Source: a virus
Reading direction: 5' to 3' (one strand)
DNA length: 38,249 bases
IMG/VR virus record: IMGVR_UViG_3300007712_000001
Location: 1 to 38,249 of that record
Shown here: positions 21,401 through 38,249 of the stretch, in pieces
How the letters are laid out: each line of letters starts with the position of its first letter
Numbering within the stretch: position 1 is the stretch's first letter
Translations under genes and position numbers: made by a program
The notes under the pieces: model-generated
The model's database searches: none
Told to the model about the DNA's origin: nothing
What the model saw: the letters and a program-made list of their open reading frames with translations, nothing else

Positions 21401-22204
21401 TTAATTTATTCTAACTGACCCGTCAATTTTGTTATTAGAGCTAATTGTTACTGTTCCGTCGGTGGCTACTGTAACATCTGCTATTACATTTTTATAGTCA
21501 CTTCCGCTCAATTCTTTGACTATTACACTTAAATCGGAATTCGCCCCTTTGCCGTGAGTTCCATTAGTATAAGTCAAAGTAAATGGTGCTGAAGCCCCTA
21601 CCCAATCAGCGATAACAAAAGTGTCAACATAAGCATTAGTTTGATAATTATCTTTAACCTTTTTAGGTGTCATTGCTTTTGTGTCATCAGTCCCCGCTGT
21701 AGCTTCTGAACTATCAGCTATTTGAATTTTACCCGCGACACTTTCAGTCGCAGTTGGAGTTACTGATTTTACTTTTACCCAGTCTGCAAAGCTTGAAGTT
21801 GAGGCGTTGTCTTCTTTAGCTATTAATTGATCGCCTTCTAAAAAGCTAATACCGTCTACAGTTCCAGCTACTGAAACAACATAGTAAAAGCCAGTATCAG
21901 CTCCAGATGGAAAAGAACTAGCTGAGGCATCCCAATCCCCCTTAAATTGTAAAGAGCCATCTAATGCAGAGCCCAAAGCATCTACATAAGTCTTAACTGC
22001 ATCAGCTCTTGCAAATTGACTTGAAGTTGCTGAGACATCTAAGTCTGTTGTTATAGCTCCAGAATCAAAATTGCTTAAAGCTACATTTGACAAAGTGTTT
22101 CCAGTTGCGGAAACATCAAAAGTCTTATTAGTAAATGTATTAGCCGAATCTTCAGTCACATAATCAGTCCCAGCTGTCGCTTCTTCTGGCACTCCAGAGA
22201 CTTC
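21401..22204 (-). CDS. tail fibre protein, C-terminal fragment (frame shifted)
   Basis: 267 codons open from GAA at 22204, just after an in-frame TAA; a GTG at 22192 is the first possible start and gives 263 residues. It opens with VSGVPEEATAGTDYVTEDS and TNKTF, which in phage fibres normally sits inside a longer chain after a GTGGKTIKKST-type segment. That segment ends the upstream fragment (22156-22494) in the +1 frame relative to this one. The middle has QFARADAVKTYVDALGSAL and ATAGTDDTKAMTPKKVKD, both typical fibre motifs. Product if unshifted: 364 residues with the upstream fragment. No upstream leader supports independent expression. Confidence 0.75.
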   Translation of the reverse strand, partial: EVSGVPEEATAGTDYVTEDSANTFTNKTFDVSATGNTLSNVALSNFDSGAITTDLDVSATSSQFARADAVKTYVDALGSALDGSLQFKGDWDASASSFPSGADTGFYYVVSVAGTVDGISFLEGDQLIAKEDNASTSSFADWVKVKSVTPTATESVAGKIQIADSSEATAGTDDTKAMTPKKVKDNYQTNAYVDTFVIADWVGASAPFTLTYTNGTHGKGANSDLSVIVKELSGSDYKNVIADVTVATDGTVTISSNNKIDGSVRIN

Positions 22205-22494
22205 TTAATTAATCCATTTTTAGTAGATTTTTTAATTGTTTTTCCACCTGTCCCAGAAAAAAGGACCGCTTGGTTGTCTACAGTCGTAGTTTCTATTGAA
22301 TTTACATCTCCAGAGCCACCTCCTGATCCTGCAACCCATTGAGTGCCGTCCCAAGTTCTAATCTCGTTAGCTACCGTATTAAAGTATGTTTGACCGACAA
22401 CTGGACTAGAAGGATTAGTTGCAAGCGGTTGAATTGCTACATTTTGAATCTCGTTCTGATTTAAATCTAAGTTTGTAATTATTTTTCTTGACAT
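22156..22494 (-). CDS. tail fibre protein, N-terminal fragment (frame shifted)
   Basis: A 112-residue open frame. Residues 1-60 form the common fibre start (IITNLDLNQNEIQNV, then NPSSPVVGQTYFNT and TWDGTQWV). The natural sequence runs to about residue 97 (GLIK), then shifts into an unrelated tail ending at a rare TGA. A -1 step at AAG AAG (22201-22206), equal to one lost base, restores a continuous fibre sequence with the next frame. No canonical slippery heptamer is present. Probably a natural one-base deletion, a polymorphic site, or an assembly error. Confidence 0.75.
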   Translation of the reverse strand: MSRKIITNLDLNQNEIQNVAIQPLATNPSSPVVGQTYFNTVANEIRTWDGTQWVAGSGGGSGDVNSIETTTVDNQAVLFSGTGGKTIKKSTKNGLIKKSLECQKKRQLGLIM

Positions 22495-23511: not shown

Positions 23512-23868
23512 ATGTCTACCAGAAGCAAAGGTCGCAAGCACGAATTAGAATACAAGCTAGAACTAGAAAAACAAGGTTACATTGTAGAATTAGTCAAAGG
23601 GTCAAGTAGGTTCAGCAAATCAGTAGATTTTTTTGGGTTGTTTGACGGTTTCGCAATATCTAAAAAAGACTGTATTCTATTCCAAGTTAAAACTAACATA
23701 AGCATAAAAGACGGCGGTAAATCTAAACTTCTGACTGATATAACAAAGTGGGCAGTAAAAAACCCTCTAAACGACTGTTTTAAGCTTCAGGTTGTTGTTA
23801 GATATACTAAGCCAGATTTAAAAAAAAGGAACGGTGGAATTTGGAAGGTTATTGATCTAAAAAAGTAA
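23512..23868 (+). CDS. PD-(D/E)XK nuclease, Holliday-junction-resolvase-like
   Basis: A 118-residue protein with the restriction-nuclease fold signature: E11 in the first helix (RKHELEYKLELEKQG), a GSSRFSKSVDFFGLFD strand pair with D39, and FQVK with Q58-x-K60 as the (E/Q)xK element. Size, the early RSKG motif and the spacing fit Hjc-like or VRR-NUC-like resolvases, which cut branched DNA. A resolvase would process recombination or replication intermediates before packaging. Monocistronic: preceded by a promoter with an operator-like dyad and followed by 191 bases without a gene. The last catalytic acid being Q is a known variant. Confidence 0.75.
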   Translation: MSTRSKGRKHELEYKLELEKQGYIVELVKGSSRFSKSVDFFGLFDGFAISKKDCILFQVKTNISIKDGGKSKLLTDITKWAVKNPLNDCFKLQVVVRYTKPDLKKRNGGIWKVIDLKK

Positions 23869-26482: not shown

Positions 26483-27169
26483 ATGAAACAATTAACAAAT
26501 CAAAATCAAAACTTTTTGACAAATGGAGAAAAATTAGACAGTGCTTTTAGACTAGCCACAGCTTTTTTTAAATCTAAAACATTTAATCAAACAATTTCAA
26601 ACGAATACCAAGCACTTACTGTTTTAATCGCTGGAAATGAAGCAGGACTACAACCAATCGAATCAATGAATTCTTTTTATATGGTGAAAGGTAGTCTTGT
26701 AATGTACGGCTCAGCCCTATCCAAAGTGATAAGTAGGGCAGGAATTGATATTAAATTTTTAGAAAGGTCTAAAACTAAAATTAAAGTTCAATATTCAAAA
26801 AATGATGAAGTGGTTGATACTTTAGAATATTCTATTCAAGACTTGCCAAGCCAAAGTAAAGCAAAAGGGTTTGCACCTGAAGAAAAGCTTGTTTATCATG
26901 CTCATAGTAGATTCTTGAGATACAATGATGTTGGTGCAAGTGTACCTTATACTGATTATGATAACGAAGTGATTGAAGCTAACGAAGAAAAAAATAACAC
27001 AGTTATTGAGACAAAAGAAAATCAAACAAAAACAGCATTAATTGAATTTATTAAAAATGAGGCTGAAAGCGAAGAAATTTTAAAGAGTGTAGAAAAACAA
27101 GTTGAACAACTAAAAGATGAAGAAATTAAAAAAATCTATACCCAAGAATTAGAAAAATTTAAAAAATAA
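26483..27169 (+). CDS. recT: RecT-like single-strand annealing protein
   Basis: A 228-residue protein. Residues about 20-125 carry the RecT/Redbeta-type pattern seen in many phages: AFRLATAFFKSKTFNQ, ALTVLIAGNEAGLQPIES, then FYMVKGSLVMYGSALSKV. After residue about 165 comes a charged helical tail. Such proteins anneal complementary single strands made by a partner 5'-3' exonuclease. The next gene begins with a YqaJ-type exonuclease domain, the usual partner, which supports the call. Shorter than typical RecT (260-300 residues). Confidence 0.8.
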   Translation: MKQLTNQNQNFLTNGEKLDSAFRLATAFFKSKTFNQTISNEYQALTVLIAGNEAGLQPIESMNSFYMVKGSLVMYGSALSKVISRAGIDIKFLERSKTKIKVQYSKNDEVVDTLEYSIQDLPSQSKAKGFAPEEKLVYHAHSRFLRYNDVGASVPYTDYDNEVIEANEEKNNTVIETKENQTKTALIEFIKNEAESEEILKSVEKQVEQLKDEEIKKIYTQELEKFKK

Positions 27170-27174
27170 AAAAT

Positions 27175-29016
27175 ATGGACATTTCAAAAATAAAATTTAG
27201 AGCTTCAAAATTTGATACTCTATGCGGAACTTCAACTAAAGCAAACAAAATTTTAACAGATAAAGCAGAAAATTATCTGAATGAAATTTACGAAGAAACA
27301 ATTTTTGGCAAAAAACCAGAAATTTATACGCCTCAAATTGAAAAAGGAAAAAGGTGTGAAAAAGATGCAATCGCATTAGTAAGAAAAAAATATCAAAAGT
27401 TTTTTGCACCAGTTCCCGATTCAAATGAAGGTTTGATACAAAATAAATACGTAACTGGTCACGTTGACGGACTTTACACAACCCCAACTGGAGACCTAGA
27501 AGTTCATGAAATTAAAACTCCTTTTTTAAACGAGACTTGGTTTCGATACACAGAAAAAGAAAACAAAAAAAGAGGGTATATAACACAAGTCAAAATTTAT
27601 CTGTGGATTTTAGGGGCTGAAAAAGGTTATATTCATATATGCGGTGTAAATACACCAGAAGATTTGATTTTAAGAGATCTACAAAAAAACGGAAGCTATA
27701 ATAAAGAAACGTTTTTAACTTCTAAAGAATATCAAGAATGGGAAGAAGCAATGATAAGAAGACATAAATTTGATGTAATCCCTGAAAAACAGCGAGTTAA
27801 AACTTATGAAGTTATTTTGACAGAAGAAGATAAAACTTTTTTTGAGTCTAGGGCAAAAATTGCAATAGAATATTTACAAAAATTAGCTGATGCTGAAACT
27901 TTAGATCTTGCAATACAAAAAAAAGATGATGTTAGTTATATAGCAACCGAAAACGGTCAAAACTTATCTGTAGAAGATAAGATCGTTTCAAAATACAGAG
28001 AATTTGGAATAGAGTTAGCTTTTGAAGAAACAATTGAAAGTGCGAGTGTCAAACAATATAGATTTAAACCTCTTTCAGCTGGAGTTAAAATTGACAAAGC
28101 TAAAAGATACAATGCTGATATTCAATCCCTAATCCAGTCTGATTCTGTAATTATAGAAACCCCAATCAAAAATACCAATTTGATTGGTATTCAAACCCCA
28201 AAAAAATCTAGAGATATATTAAAATTTCCAAAATTAAAACAAAATTTCCAAAGTTTAAAAATTGAACTTGGAAAAACGATAAATAATGAAAAATATACTC
28301 TTGATATTGCAAAAGCTCCTCATATTTTAATCGGCGGCGCAACAGGAAGCGGTAAGTCAGTATTGATAAAATCAATTTTCAAACAATTAGAAAACAATAA
28401 AATAGATTTTAAAATATTAGATCCAAAATTTGAATTTGAAGATTCTATTAAAGAGCCGATAAAAATTTATAAAGAGCTAAAAGAAACAAAAGAACTGATA
28501 AAAGAGAGGCTTAAAATTCAAGATAAAACTAAAATATCACCCCTTGTTTTAATTCTTGACGAAATGGAAACATTATTAAGTGAGAATCAAAAATTAGATT
28601 ATGAAATTGATGAAAAACGATACCCAAAGTTTTTGACGGTCTATAATCAAACAACGAAAGGGATAACAACAAAACAAGTAAAAAATCCTGAATATTTAGA
28701 ACAGATTAAAATTCAAAAATCACAACCAAAAATTGGTGAAGCTTGTAAAGAAATAATTGAATATATCACCAGAATCGGAAGAAGTGAAAAAGTGCATTTA
28801 ATCTTAGCTACTCAAAATCCAACGGTCAAAAATGTTAGCTCAAGCATTAAAGCTAATTGCCCAACTAGAATTTGTTTAAGAGTAGCAACTCAAATAAATT
28901 CTAAAGTAATCTTAGATGAAGAAGGGGGTGAAAAACTTTTAGGTAATGGGGACATGCTAGTTAGATCACCTTTTTCAAACGACTTGACAAGAATACAATC
29001 ATACTTTGTCAACTAA
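27175..29016 (+). CDS. YqaJ-type exonuclease fused to an FtsK/SpoIIIE-type DNA motor
   Basis: A 613-residue two-part protein. Residues 1-215 are a YqaJ/lambda-exonuclease-like PD-(D/E)XK domain: E62 in KRCEKDAI, D98 in TGHVDGLY, E112-x-K114 in HEIKTP, and a helix with Q138 (YITQVKIYLWIL). Residues about 260-613 match the FtsK motor with its preceding alpha/beta segment: PLSAGVKIDKAKRYNADIQSL, IGIQTPKKSR, Walker A GGATGSGKS (387-395, K394), Walker B LVLILDEME (D462, E463), LATQNP (544-549) and RICLRVATQINSKVILDEEGG. An insert of about 45 residues lies between Walker B and LATQNP. No DNA-orienting gamma domain follows. One continuous frame, no internal start signals. It suggests a motor-driven end-resection enzyme that feeds RecT. 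Confidence 0.88.
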   Translation: MDISKIKFRASKFDTLCGTSTKANKILTDKAENYLNEIYEETIFGKKPEIYTPQIEKGKRCEKDAIALVRKKYQKFFAPVPDSNEGLIQNKYVTGHVDGLYTTPTGDLEVHEIKTPFLNETWFRYTEKENKKRGYITQVKIYLWILGAEKGYIHICGVNTPEDLILRDLQKNGSYNKETFLTSKEYQEWEEAMIRRHKFDVIPEKQRVKTYEVILTEEDKTFFESRAKIAIEYLQKLADAETLDLAIQKKDDVSYIATENGQNLSVEDKIVSKYREFGIELAFEETIESASVKQYRFKPLSAGVKIDKAKRYNADIQSLIQSDSVIIETPIKNTNLIGIQTPKKSRDILKFPKLKQNFQSLKIELGKTINNEKYTLDIAKAPHILIGGATGSGKSVLIKSIFKQLENNKIDFKILDPKFEFEDSIKEPIKIYKELKETKELIKERLKIQDKTKISPLVLILDEMETLLSENQKLDYEIDEKRYPKFLTVYNQTTKGITTKQVKNPEYLEQIKIQKSQPKIGEACKEIIEYITRIGRSEKVHLILATQNPTVKNVSSSIKANCPTRICLRVATQINSKVILDEEGGEKLLGNGDMLVRSPFSNDLTRIQSYFVN

Positions 29017-31972: not shown

Positions 31973-32617
31973 ATGTTTATAACAACTTCAACAGGATACC
32001 GCTCTACGGGAAATTACTCTACAGGCAACTATTCGACAGGCTCCCATTCTACAGGATACCGCTCTACAGGTCACAGCTCAACAGGCTATCGATCTACAGG
32101 AAATTACTCTACAGGAGACTGTTCGACAGGATACTGTTCAACAGGTCATCGCTCAACAGGACGTCGCTCCACAGGCGACTGGTCAATATCTAACTATTCT
32201 TCAGGTCACTTTTCAACAATTGATTACTCAGGCTTTGGGGCATTTAACAAACCTTGCACCCCTGAAGAATGGGGACATACAAAAATACCTAATTGGTTTT
32301 ATTTTGATTTAACCGAATGGATAGAAGAAGATGAAATGACAGAAAAAGAAAAACAAGAAAATCCAAGCTATAAAACAACAGGTGGGTATTTAAAAGTTTA
32401 TGGCTACAAAGAAGCTTGGAGAAGGTCTTATGATTCAGTAAGCAGGAAAGAGCAATTAGAAGCTTTAGATGTTCTTAATTTTGATTCAAATGTGTTTTTT
32501 GAAATTACAGGGATCAGAGTTGAAGAGGAAGAAAAAACTATAAATATTGATGGTAGAGATTACACTTTATCAGATATTAAAAAATGTTTAAAACTTTTAA
32601 ATGATAAAAACAACTAA
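31973..32617 (+). CDS. STG-type pentapeptide-repeat protein
   Basis: A 214-residue protein. Residues 6-70 are 13 uninterrupted copies of S-T-G-x-x (YR, NY, NY, SH, YR, HS and so on), then about three decayed units (SISNY, SSGHF, STIDY). The rest (FNKPCTPEEWGHTKIPNWF, KTTGGYLKVYGYKEAW, NFDSNVFFEITGI) is the domain that regularly follows such repeats in phage and prophage proteins (DUF7666-like, from memory). The repeat probably forms a beta-helix; the molecular role of the family is unknown. It stands before the endolysin. Confidence 0.75.
   Translation: MFITTSTGYRSTGNYSTGNYSTGSHSTGYRSTGHSSTGYRSTGNYSTGDCSTGYCSTGHRSTGRRSTGDWSISNYSSGHFSTIDYSGFGAFNKPCTPEEWGHTKIPNWFYFDLTEWIEEDEMTEKEKQENPSYKTTGGYLKVYGYKEAWRRSYDSVSRKEQLEALDVLNFDSNVFFEITGIRVEEEEKTINIDGRDYTLSDIKKCLKLLNDKNN
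31988..32182 (+). repeat. 15-base tandem repeat array (13 units)
   Basis: Thirteen units of 15 bases with core TC(A/T)ACAGG followed by variable bases, encoding STGxx. The units share the core but differ in their variable positions, so they are old enough to have diverged. Copy number can be expected to change by slippage or recombination. Confidence 0.9.
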
Positions 32618-37592: not shown

Positions 37593-38249
37593 ATGAGACA
37601 AATCCAAAATAAAATAATCAAAACTGAATTAGTAAATTGGCAGGAGCTAAAAGATCTGCAACCAACTAATCTTAAAAATCCTTACCATAATGAAAAGACT
37701 AAAAAAAGTTTAATTAAAAATGGTTTTAGCTTTGCTTTTTATGTTTGGCAAAGTGAAGGAGATATTTATATTTTAGATGGACATTTAAGAACTGATTTGT
37801 TAAGAGAATTAGTAAATGAGGGTTTTGATGTTCCAGAAAAACTAACCTGCACTTTTTTAGATTTAAAAAATAGAAAAGAAGCGGTTAAATATTTACTAGA
37901 GGTTTTTAATACCAAAAAAAATCCTATTGACGAAACGGCAATGATTGACTGGATTGAGATTGAGGATATTGATATTGAAGAGGTTGAGGTTGATAGTTTG
38001 GATGTGGAAGTTGTAGAGCAAGAAAATGTTGAAGAGTTAGAAGCAGAAGAGGATGATTTTGAAGTTGGAGACACAAACCAAGTTAAAACAGATATTGTTT
38101 TAGGTGATTTGTTTGAGATTGGTGAGCATCGTTTGCTTTGTGGGGATAGTACAGATTCAGACCAAGTGGCTAAGTTGATGAATGGTGAAAAGGCTGATAT
38201 GGTCTTTACAGACCCACCTTATAATATAGATTATCAAGGTGTAACAAAA
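37593..38249 (+). CDS. ParB-like domain/methyltransferase fusion, 5' part (continues at position 1)
   Basis: 219 codons, open at the window end; codon phase at 38127 equals that at base 1, so the full protein has about 401 residues. Residues about 10-110 look like a ParB/Srx N-terminal domain, with [19 protein letters not shown] and the hallmark [12 protein letters not shown] (D-G-H-x-R). An acidic linker (about 120-165, many Glu/Asp) joins it to [18 protein letters not shown] and the methyltransferase with DPPY at 207-210. ParB-methylase fusions are common in phages and integrated elements; the ParB domain may steer the enzyme or act as a CTP/DNA switch (inference). Confidence 0.88.
38127..38249. 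repeat. terminal direct repeat, right copy
   Basis: Identical to bases 1-123. Marks the closure of a circular or circularly permuted genome; see the left copy. Confidence 0.93.

Follow-up and report, generated by a model that had tools for sequence, protein, structure and literature searches.

Locus and phage genome

The window analyzed here is the whole of a 38,249-nucleotide stretch of DNA, IMG/VR virus record IMGVR_UViG_3300007712_000001. On its plus strand, a gene for a RecT-like protein is followed by a gene that joins an exonuclease domain to an FtsK-type motor. The features of the window that bear on this gene pair are listed below, with residue numbers referring to the fusion protein.

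1–123 and 38127–38249, no strand assigned: 123-base terminal direct repeat, seen in the sequence
26483–27169, plus strand: RecT-like ssDNA annealing protein, 228 aa (phrog_4171, 3.4e-7)
27175–29016, plus strand: nuclease–FtsK fusion gene, ATG start, single frame, 613 aa
27190–27675, plus strand: YqaJ/lambda-exonuclease-type PD-(D/E)XK core, residues 6–167 (phrog_5715, PF09588)
27676–27948, plus strand: remainder of the exonuclease domain and linker, residues 168–258 (alignments, tblastn ranges)
27949–28200, plus strand: FtsK alpha domain, residues 259–342 (PF17854, 7.9e-8)
28207–29013, plus strand: FtsK motor (beta, RecA-like) domain, residues 345–613 (PF01580, phrog_1358, PDB 2iuu/6t8o)
28333–28359, plus strand: Walker A motif GGATGSGKS, residues 387–395 (sequence, alignment)
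28558–28563, plus strand: Walker B residues D462–E463 (sequence)
28582–28728, plus strand: insert of about 49 residues separating Walker B from the arginine finger, with approximate limits (spacing comparison)
28780–28815, plus strand: arginine finger R536 and sensor-1 Q547 (ATQ), invariant in the alignment

The terminal direct repeat marks the record as a complete genome of 38 kb. The genome encodes a terminase, a portal, a tape measure protein, and lysis genes; the proteins scanned include replication, head, tail, and lysis functions, and for the terminase and the antirepressor all matches are distant. No DndFG or PT-modification genes were seen among the window proteins scanned. Phage replication genes surround the fusion gene, and a DnaD-like loader is encoded upstream of it.

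The gene starts of the window have nearly no Shine–Dalgarno motifs and an A-rich leader, and in 28 of 33 the base at position −1 is T (TATG). Missing Shine–Dalgarno motifs and T at −1 are shared with phages L092, L093, L094, L095, L114, and L125, which carry the related fusions described later. A recoded genetic code (table 25) was considered and rejected, because with table 11 the window genes are open and contain almost no in-frame TGA. Three further observations concern other genes of the window. The protein encoded at 31973–32617 has an N terminus made of many short STG-containing repeats. On the minus strand, at 21401–22494, two overlapping tail-fibre-like ORFs look like one gene with a frameshift or sequencing indel. 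The 118-aa protein of 23512–23868 has an Hjc/PD-(D/E)XK-like look (GSS..D..QVK), perhaps that of a resolvase, and gave no match in Pfam or PHROGs.

Domain architecture of the fusion protein

A reading of the DNA made from the sequence alone (hereafter the sequence-only reading) had described one uninterrupted 613-codon frame, and this stands: the ORF starts with ATG and contains no internal stops. The same reading had proposed a domain search of each half, and Pfam and PHROGs assigned both, one as an exonuclease and the other as FtsK. The exonuclease part matches phrog_5715 (residues 6–167, 8e-21) and Pfam YqaJ, PF09588 (residues 10–148), at 22.0 bits, which exactly reaches the cut-off of 22; by sequence, its PDB match is a weak one to the phage exonuclease 3k93 (residues 6–165, E 0.023). 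Relatives of the exonuclease align up to about residue 240 of the fusion, in both alignments and tblastn. The motor half matches the FtsK/SpoIIIE-like family phrog_1358 (residues 245–612, 9e-43), Pfam FtsK_SpoIIIE, PF01580 (from residue 349, 1e-12), and, by sequence, FtsK structure 2iuu (residues 271–612, 4e-32), and its fold matches the FtsK structures 2iut and 6t8o.

The putative catalytic residues E62, D98, E112-x-K114, and Q138 lie where they had been placed from the sequence, and all fall on conserved columns in an alignment with 13 other exonucleases. E62, D98, K114, and Q138 are invariant in all 14 aligned proteins, the window's included; most of the others have aspartate in place of E112. 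Walker A, D462–E463, and the LATQNP motif (residues 544–549) are likewise found at the positions given for them, and the roles of the arginine finger and the sensor glutamine were assigned following PMC10853773. Most catalytic and motor residues of the fusion are thus invariant among relatives in these alignments.

Two parts of chromosomal FtsK are absent from the fusion: the gamma domain, as the chain stops after the motor, and the membrane N terminus, whose place is occupied by the nuclease. The best matches of the motor are FtsK proteins, with a weaker match to DUF87, the model of the HerA central domain. The protein has no NurA match, and no SF1 helicase was assigned above cut-off in Pfam, PHROGs, or the PDB, the P-loop matches being of the FtsK/HerA class. 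In an AlphaFold model of the window protein, pLDDT is below 50 over residues 46–183, in the nuclease domain, so the nuclease fold is assigned from sequence. Profile matches and alignments together confirm the protein as a YqaJ-type exonuclease joined to an FtsK alpha domain and a complete FtsK motor. The GC content is even across the joint (29.7% in the exonuclease part, 28.8% in the motor part), and a chimeric assembly is very unlikely because about 59 other loci have the same domain order.

Distribution of the YqaJ–FtsK chain

A search of 50,697 phage records gave no match spanning 80% of the fusion protein; the matches were FtsK motors or, separately, exonucleases, and plasmids likewise gave only separate FtsK-motor and exonuclease matches. 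The closest exonucleases in IMG/VR, at least 154 loci from two scans, had no FtsK motor in the fetched flanks, and their open frames were at most 284 residues long among the matches listed. These figures cover only the matches listed, so further YqaJ–FtsK fusions may exist. Single-sequence scans of viral contigs returned no close relatives of the whole protein, the motor alone, or the portal, and a single-sequence scan of genome contigs returned none of the whole protein. Cultured Leeuwenhoekiella and Riemerella phages have a related exonuclease beside RecT without a motor, and such a motorless pair is the usual arrangement for relatives of the window exonuclease. The YqaJ–FtsK chain therefore seems, among the matches listed, to be unique to the window record.

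A sister family with a different nuclease

When the motor was aligned with FtsK from phages and bacteria, FtsK proteins of IMG/VR phages with about 300 extra N-terminal residues came to light. Nine of ten that were scanned consist of a PDDEXK_1 nuclease (PF12705; exonuclease families phrog_1218/phrog_69), followed by FtsK_alpha and then the motor; one of the nine, L096, is N-terminally short and falls just below the PF12705 cut-off. The tenth, L122, was rejected as a fusion because it is a complete FtsK of the cellular type that includes the membrane part and the gamma domain. After two more scans and a scan of GTDB, the sister fusions total 57 virus contigs and two bacterial MAGs, counted as distinct contig names and including a few near-copies. 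Their nuclease is PDDEXK_1/Cas4-like and thus of another family than YqaJ, and their motors are truncated at the same place as that of the window. When the nuclease alone was used for searching, all 33 viral loci found carried the motor, three of them being cut by the contig end. Sister fusions were absent from the cultured-phage records searched.

The predicted structure of one sister fusion, L098, has a pLDDT of 90; the model resembles FtsK hexamer subunits on dsDNA, and its nuclease part resembles Cas4-like ACE1 and AdnAB. Of the two MAG fusions, L172 lies in a Candidatus Saccharibacteria prophage beside cell-wall genes and is the only fusion for which a host was assigned; L171 sits in a 0.7-Mb bacterial genome. 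Among 380 Patescibacteria genomes sampled, the fusion was found in one, the L172 genome itself, and the nuclease alone in three. Stand-alone sister nucleases of 291–300 aa (L208, L209, and L210) occur in three genomes of this phylum with no motor in the surrounding 1.5 kb, and they possibly reflect loss or domestication.

The sequence-only reading knew of no described system of this exact build. This holds in that none was found in phage records and that a literature search found no paper naming a nuclease–FtsK and RecT system; the nuclease–FtsK fusion as such is, however, widespread among environmental phages.

Kinship and peculiarities of the fused motors

Among the FtsK motors tested, that of the window is nearer to the fusions than to the cellular ones or the unfused phage ones; the 30 best of its 93 matches were all fusions, a ranking with some bias, as the window motor had served as query in finding many of the fusions. 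In the best tree, the window motor groups inside the sister fusions on a long branch, and the AU test is compatible with its being placed elsewhere, that is, with a motor captured separately from the sister fusions. Taken together, the motors suggest that the two fusion types are one family. For the nucleases, profile comparison gave no support for a common origin of the two families (hhalign probability 2.7%). The two types may have arisen by a nuclease swap, by fusion on two occasions, or by divergence of the halves beyond recognition.

The long branch of this diverged motor, together with a short Walker A–Walker B spacing (68 residues vs about 99 in cellular FtsK), would fit a motor that has lost FtsK pumping and serves purely as a structural scaffold for an exonuclease working independently of ATP, like lambda exonuclease. 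We consider this very improbable, as Walker A, D462–E463, R536, and Q547 are all kept and a near-equal short spacing of 72–73 residues occurs in the Saccharibacteria prophage and in a related virus contig.

The sequence-only reading had also pointed to an unusual insert in the motor. The insert is real: Walker B and the arginine finger are 74 residues apart in the window fusion, compared with 25 in cellular FtsK (n = 24), where the insert is almost absent, and 24–37 in unfused phage motors (n = 30). It is not peculiar to the window, since the median spacing in fusions is 49 residues (n = 37), four spacings being left out as unreliable because the wrong Walker B had apparently been picked. Some fusions do not have the insert, which is therefore a common and not a defining feature of fused motors. 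In the L098 model, two predicted strands (547–556 and 562–572) lie inside the insert and resemble a β-hairpin; as a guess, the insert may contact DNA or the nuclease.

Linkage to RecT

The RecT-like gene that had been claimed upstream of the fusion is present, its stop codon lying 5 bases before the start of the fusion gene. The encoded protein has no Pfam match, and PHROGs places it with phrog_4171; it shares a blast cluster with the upstream genes of other fusion phages. An exonuclease gene thus lies directly beside a RecT-family gene in the window, as in an exonuclease–RecT pair. Pfam RecT matches 35 of 42 annealing proteins (the window's and 41 others), and PHROGs names annealing families for members missed by Pfam, including that of the window.

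Whether nuclease–FtsK fusions co-occur with RecT, a check suggested along with the claim, could be answered from the sister loci. Of 57 distinct fusion loci tested, 56 have a gene of the RecT family on the same strand and no more than 2.4 kb away; in most of them it abuts the fusion gene or is separated from it by a few hundred bases at most, and the sole locus without one is cut by its contig end. Near unfused FtsK, a RecT-family gene was found at none of 53 loci (37 and 16 in two tests); the annealing-protein queries were taken from fusion loci, so that a very different annealing protein near unfused FtsK could escape. This linkage is the strongest evidence that the fusion probably works in recombination.

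The linkage also bears on two other possible roles. One is that the fusion helps to position, segregate, or package DNA, with the FtsK pump moving phage DNA, the nuclease trimming or resolving ends, and the RecT neighbor being unrelated. In cells, FtsK pumps do serve DNA segregation, and phages such as LittleE have FtsK as a stand-alone gene. RecT, however, is found near fused FtsK almost always and near its stand-alone phage counterparts at none of the 53 loci, the window phage has a terminase and portal of its own, and the fusion lacks the KOPS-reading gamma domain as well as the membrane part; we regard such a role as unlikely. Slightly less likely still is a weapon, an ATP-driven nuclease destroying the DNA of the host or of competing phages in the manner of DndH-type HerA/FtsK capture proteins. 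DndH and other nuclease–HerA/FtsK fusions have been proposed as anti-invader systems (PMC10853773), but the close and conserved linkage to RecT and the position of the fusion among replication genes, downstream of the DnaD-like loader, argue against this role here.

Proposed mechanism of end resection

The reading that we prefer, with a probability of roughly 0.7, is that the fusion resects DNA ends as a single-chain, ATP-driven enzyme, in partnership with the adjacent RecT-like protein. The FtsK part would assemble into a hexameric ring, engage an end of dsDNA, and pump the duplex. Each ring could bear as many as six N-terminal exonuclease domains; placed at the entry or exit of the pump, they would cut one strand, and cutting would depend on ATP. 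Enzymes of the lambda-exonuclease/YqaJ family usually cut 5′ to 3′, which yields the 3′ tail needed by RecT. Cutting by the fusion is most likely also 5′ to 3′, as in this class, and the remaining 3′ single strand could then be handed over physically to RecT for annealing. The phage might use such an enzyme for recombination-dependent replication, concatemer formation, or break repair. That a motor of the HerA/FtsK class can drive end resection is known from HerA–NurA (PMC9960219).

The sequence-only reading had spoken of a self-contained, ATP-driven resection and annealing system in a phage, and the comparison of loci lends strong support to this proposal through the sister fusions and their proximity to RecT. 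On balance, we also lean toward the wider view that environmental phages, some of them infecting Patescibacteria, hold a recombination system of a class not yet described, where a hexameric FtsK pump equipped with a nuclease of its own serves instead of a helicase for end resection and feeds RecT, the nuclease coming from at least two unrelated families by domain swap or separate fusion. An explanation of this arrangement by hosts that lack RecBCD was rejected: the sampled Patescibacteria genomes hold RecB/AddA-like frames, which score below the RecB cut-off.

Comparison with known systems

The motors for end resection that have been studied well are either SF1 helicases or HerA, whose nuclease is a separate protein. 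RecBCD, AddAB, and AdnAB resemble the fusion in coupling a motor to a PD-(D/E)XK nuclease and in making 3′ tails, but their motors are SF1 helicases, whereas that of the fusion is an FtsK-type dsDNA pump. Phage exonuclease–RecT pairs are thought to work without a motor. The Red alpha/beta, RecET, and YqaJ/YqaK-type pairs have, like the window, an exonuclease of the same broad family adjoining a RecT-family gene; their exonucleases have no motor, in contrast to the window exonuclease with its FtsK pump. A RecT and YqaJ exonuclease pair of the Bacteroidota-phage type (L218) was seen on a contig of a Patescibacteria-phylum genome, which is either a phage or a mis-binned contig.

HerA–NurA of archaea and Deinococcus is similar in resecting dsDNA ends with a nuclease driven by a HerA/FtsK-class ring motor (PMC9960219, available text), and it differs in being cellular and consisting of two separate proteins, with NurA as nuclease and a HerA rather than an FtsK motor; a RecT partner is not reported in that portion of the source. 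DndH and other HerA/FtsK capture proteins also combine a nuclease with a HerA/FtsK motor, some with FtsK alpha, but the nuclease is of the restriction type and encoded in defence gene clusters, and the available text of PMC10853773 does not mention RecT.

A single chain that carries both an FtsK pump and an exonuclease, and that dozens of phage lineages keep next to RecT, would represent a further design for resection. Its novelty would lie in the FtsK-based form, motor-driven end resection itself being already known. Since few known DNA motors are faster than FtsK, the fusion enzyme could resect very fast and aid recombineering. The fusion also offers a view of recombination in Patescibacteria phages, whose genetics are almost unknown.

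Stand-alone phage FtsK proteins, such as that of mycobacteriophage LittleE and its relatives, share with the fusion the FtsK alpha domain and motor and the absence of a membrane part, but have no nuclease domain and no RecT nearby. Two records filed as phages, L005 and L007 (MT838360 and OR846645), carry complete FtsK genes that look cellular and encode hydrophobic segments at the N terminus; these records are likely bacterial contamination of the phage collection.
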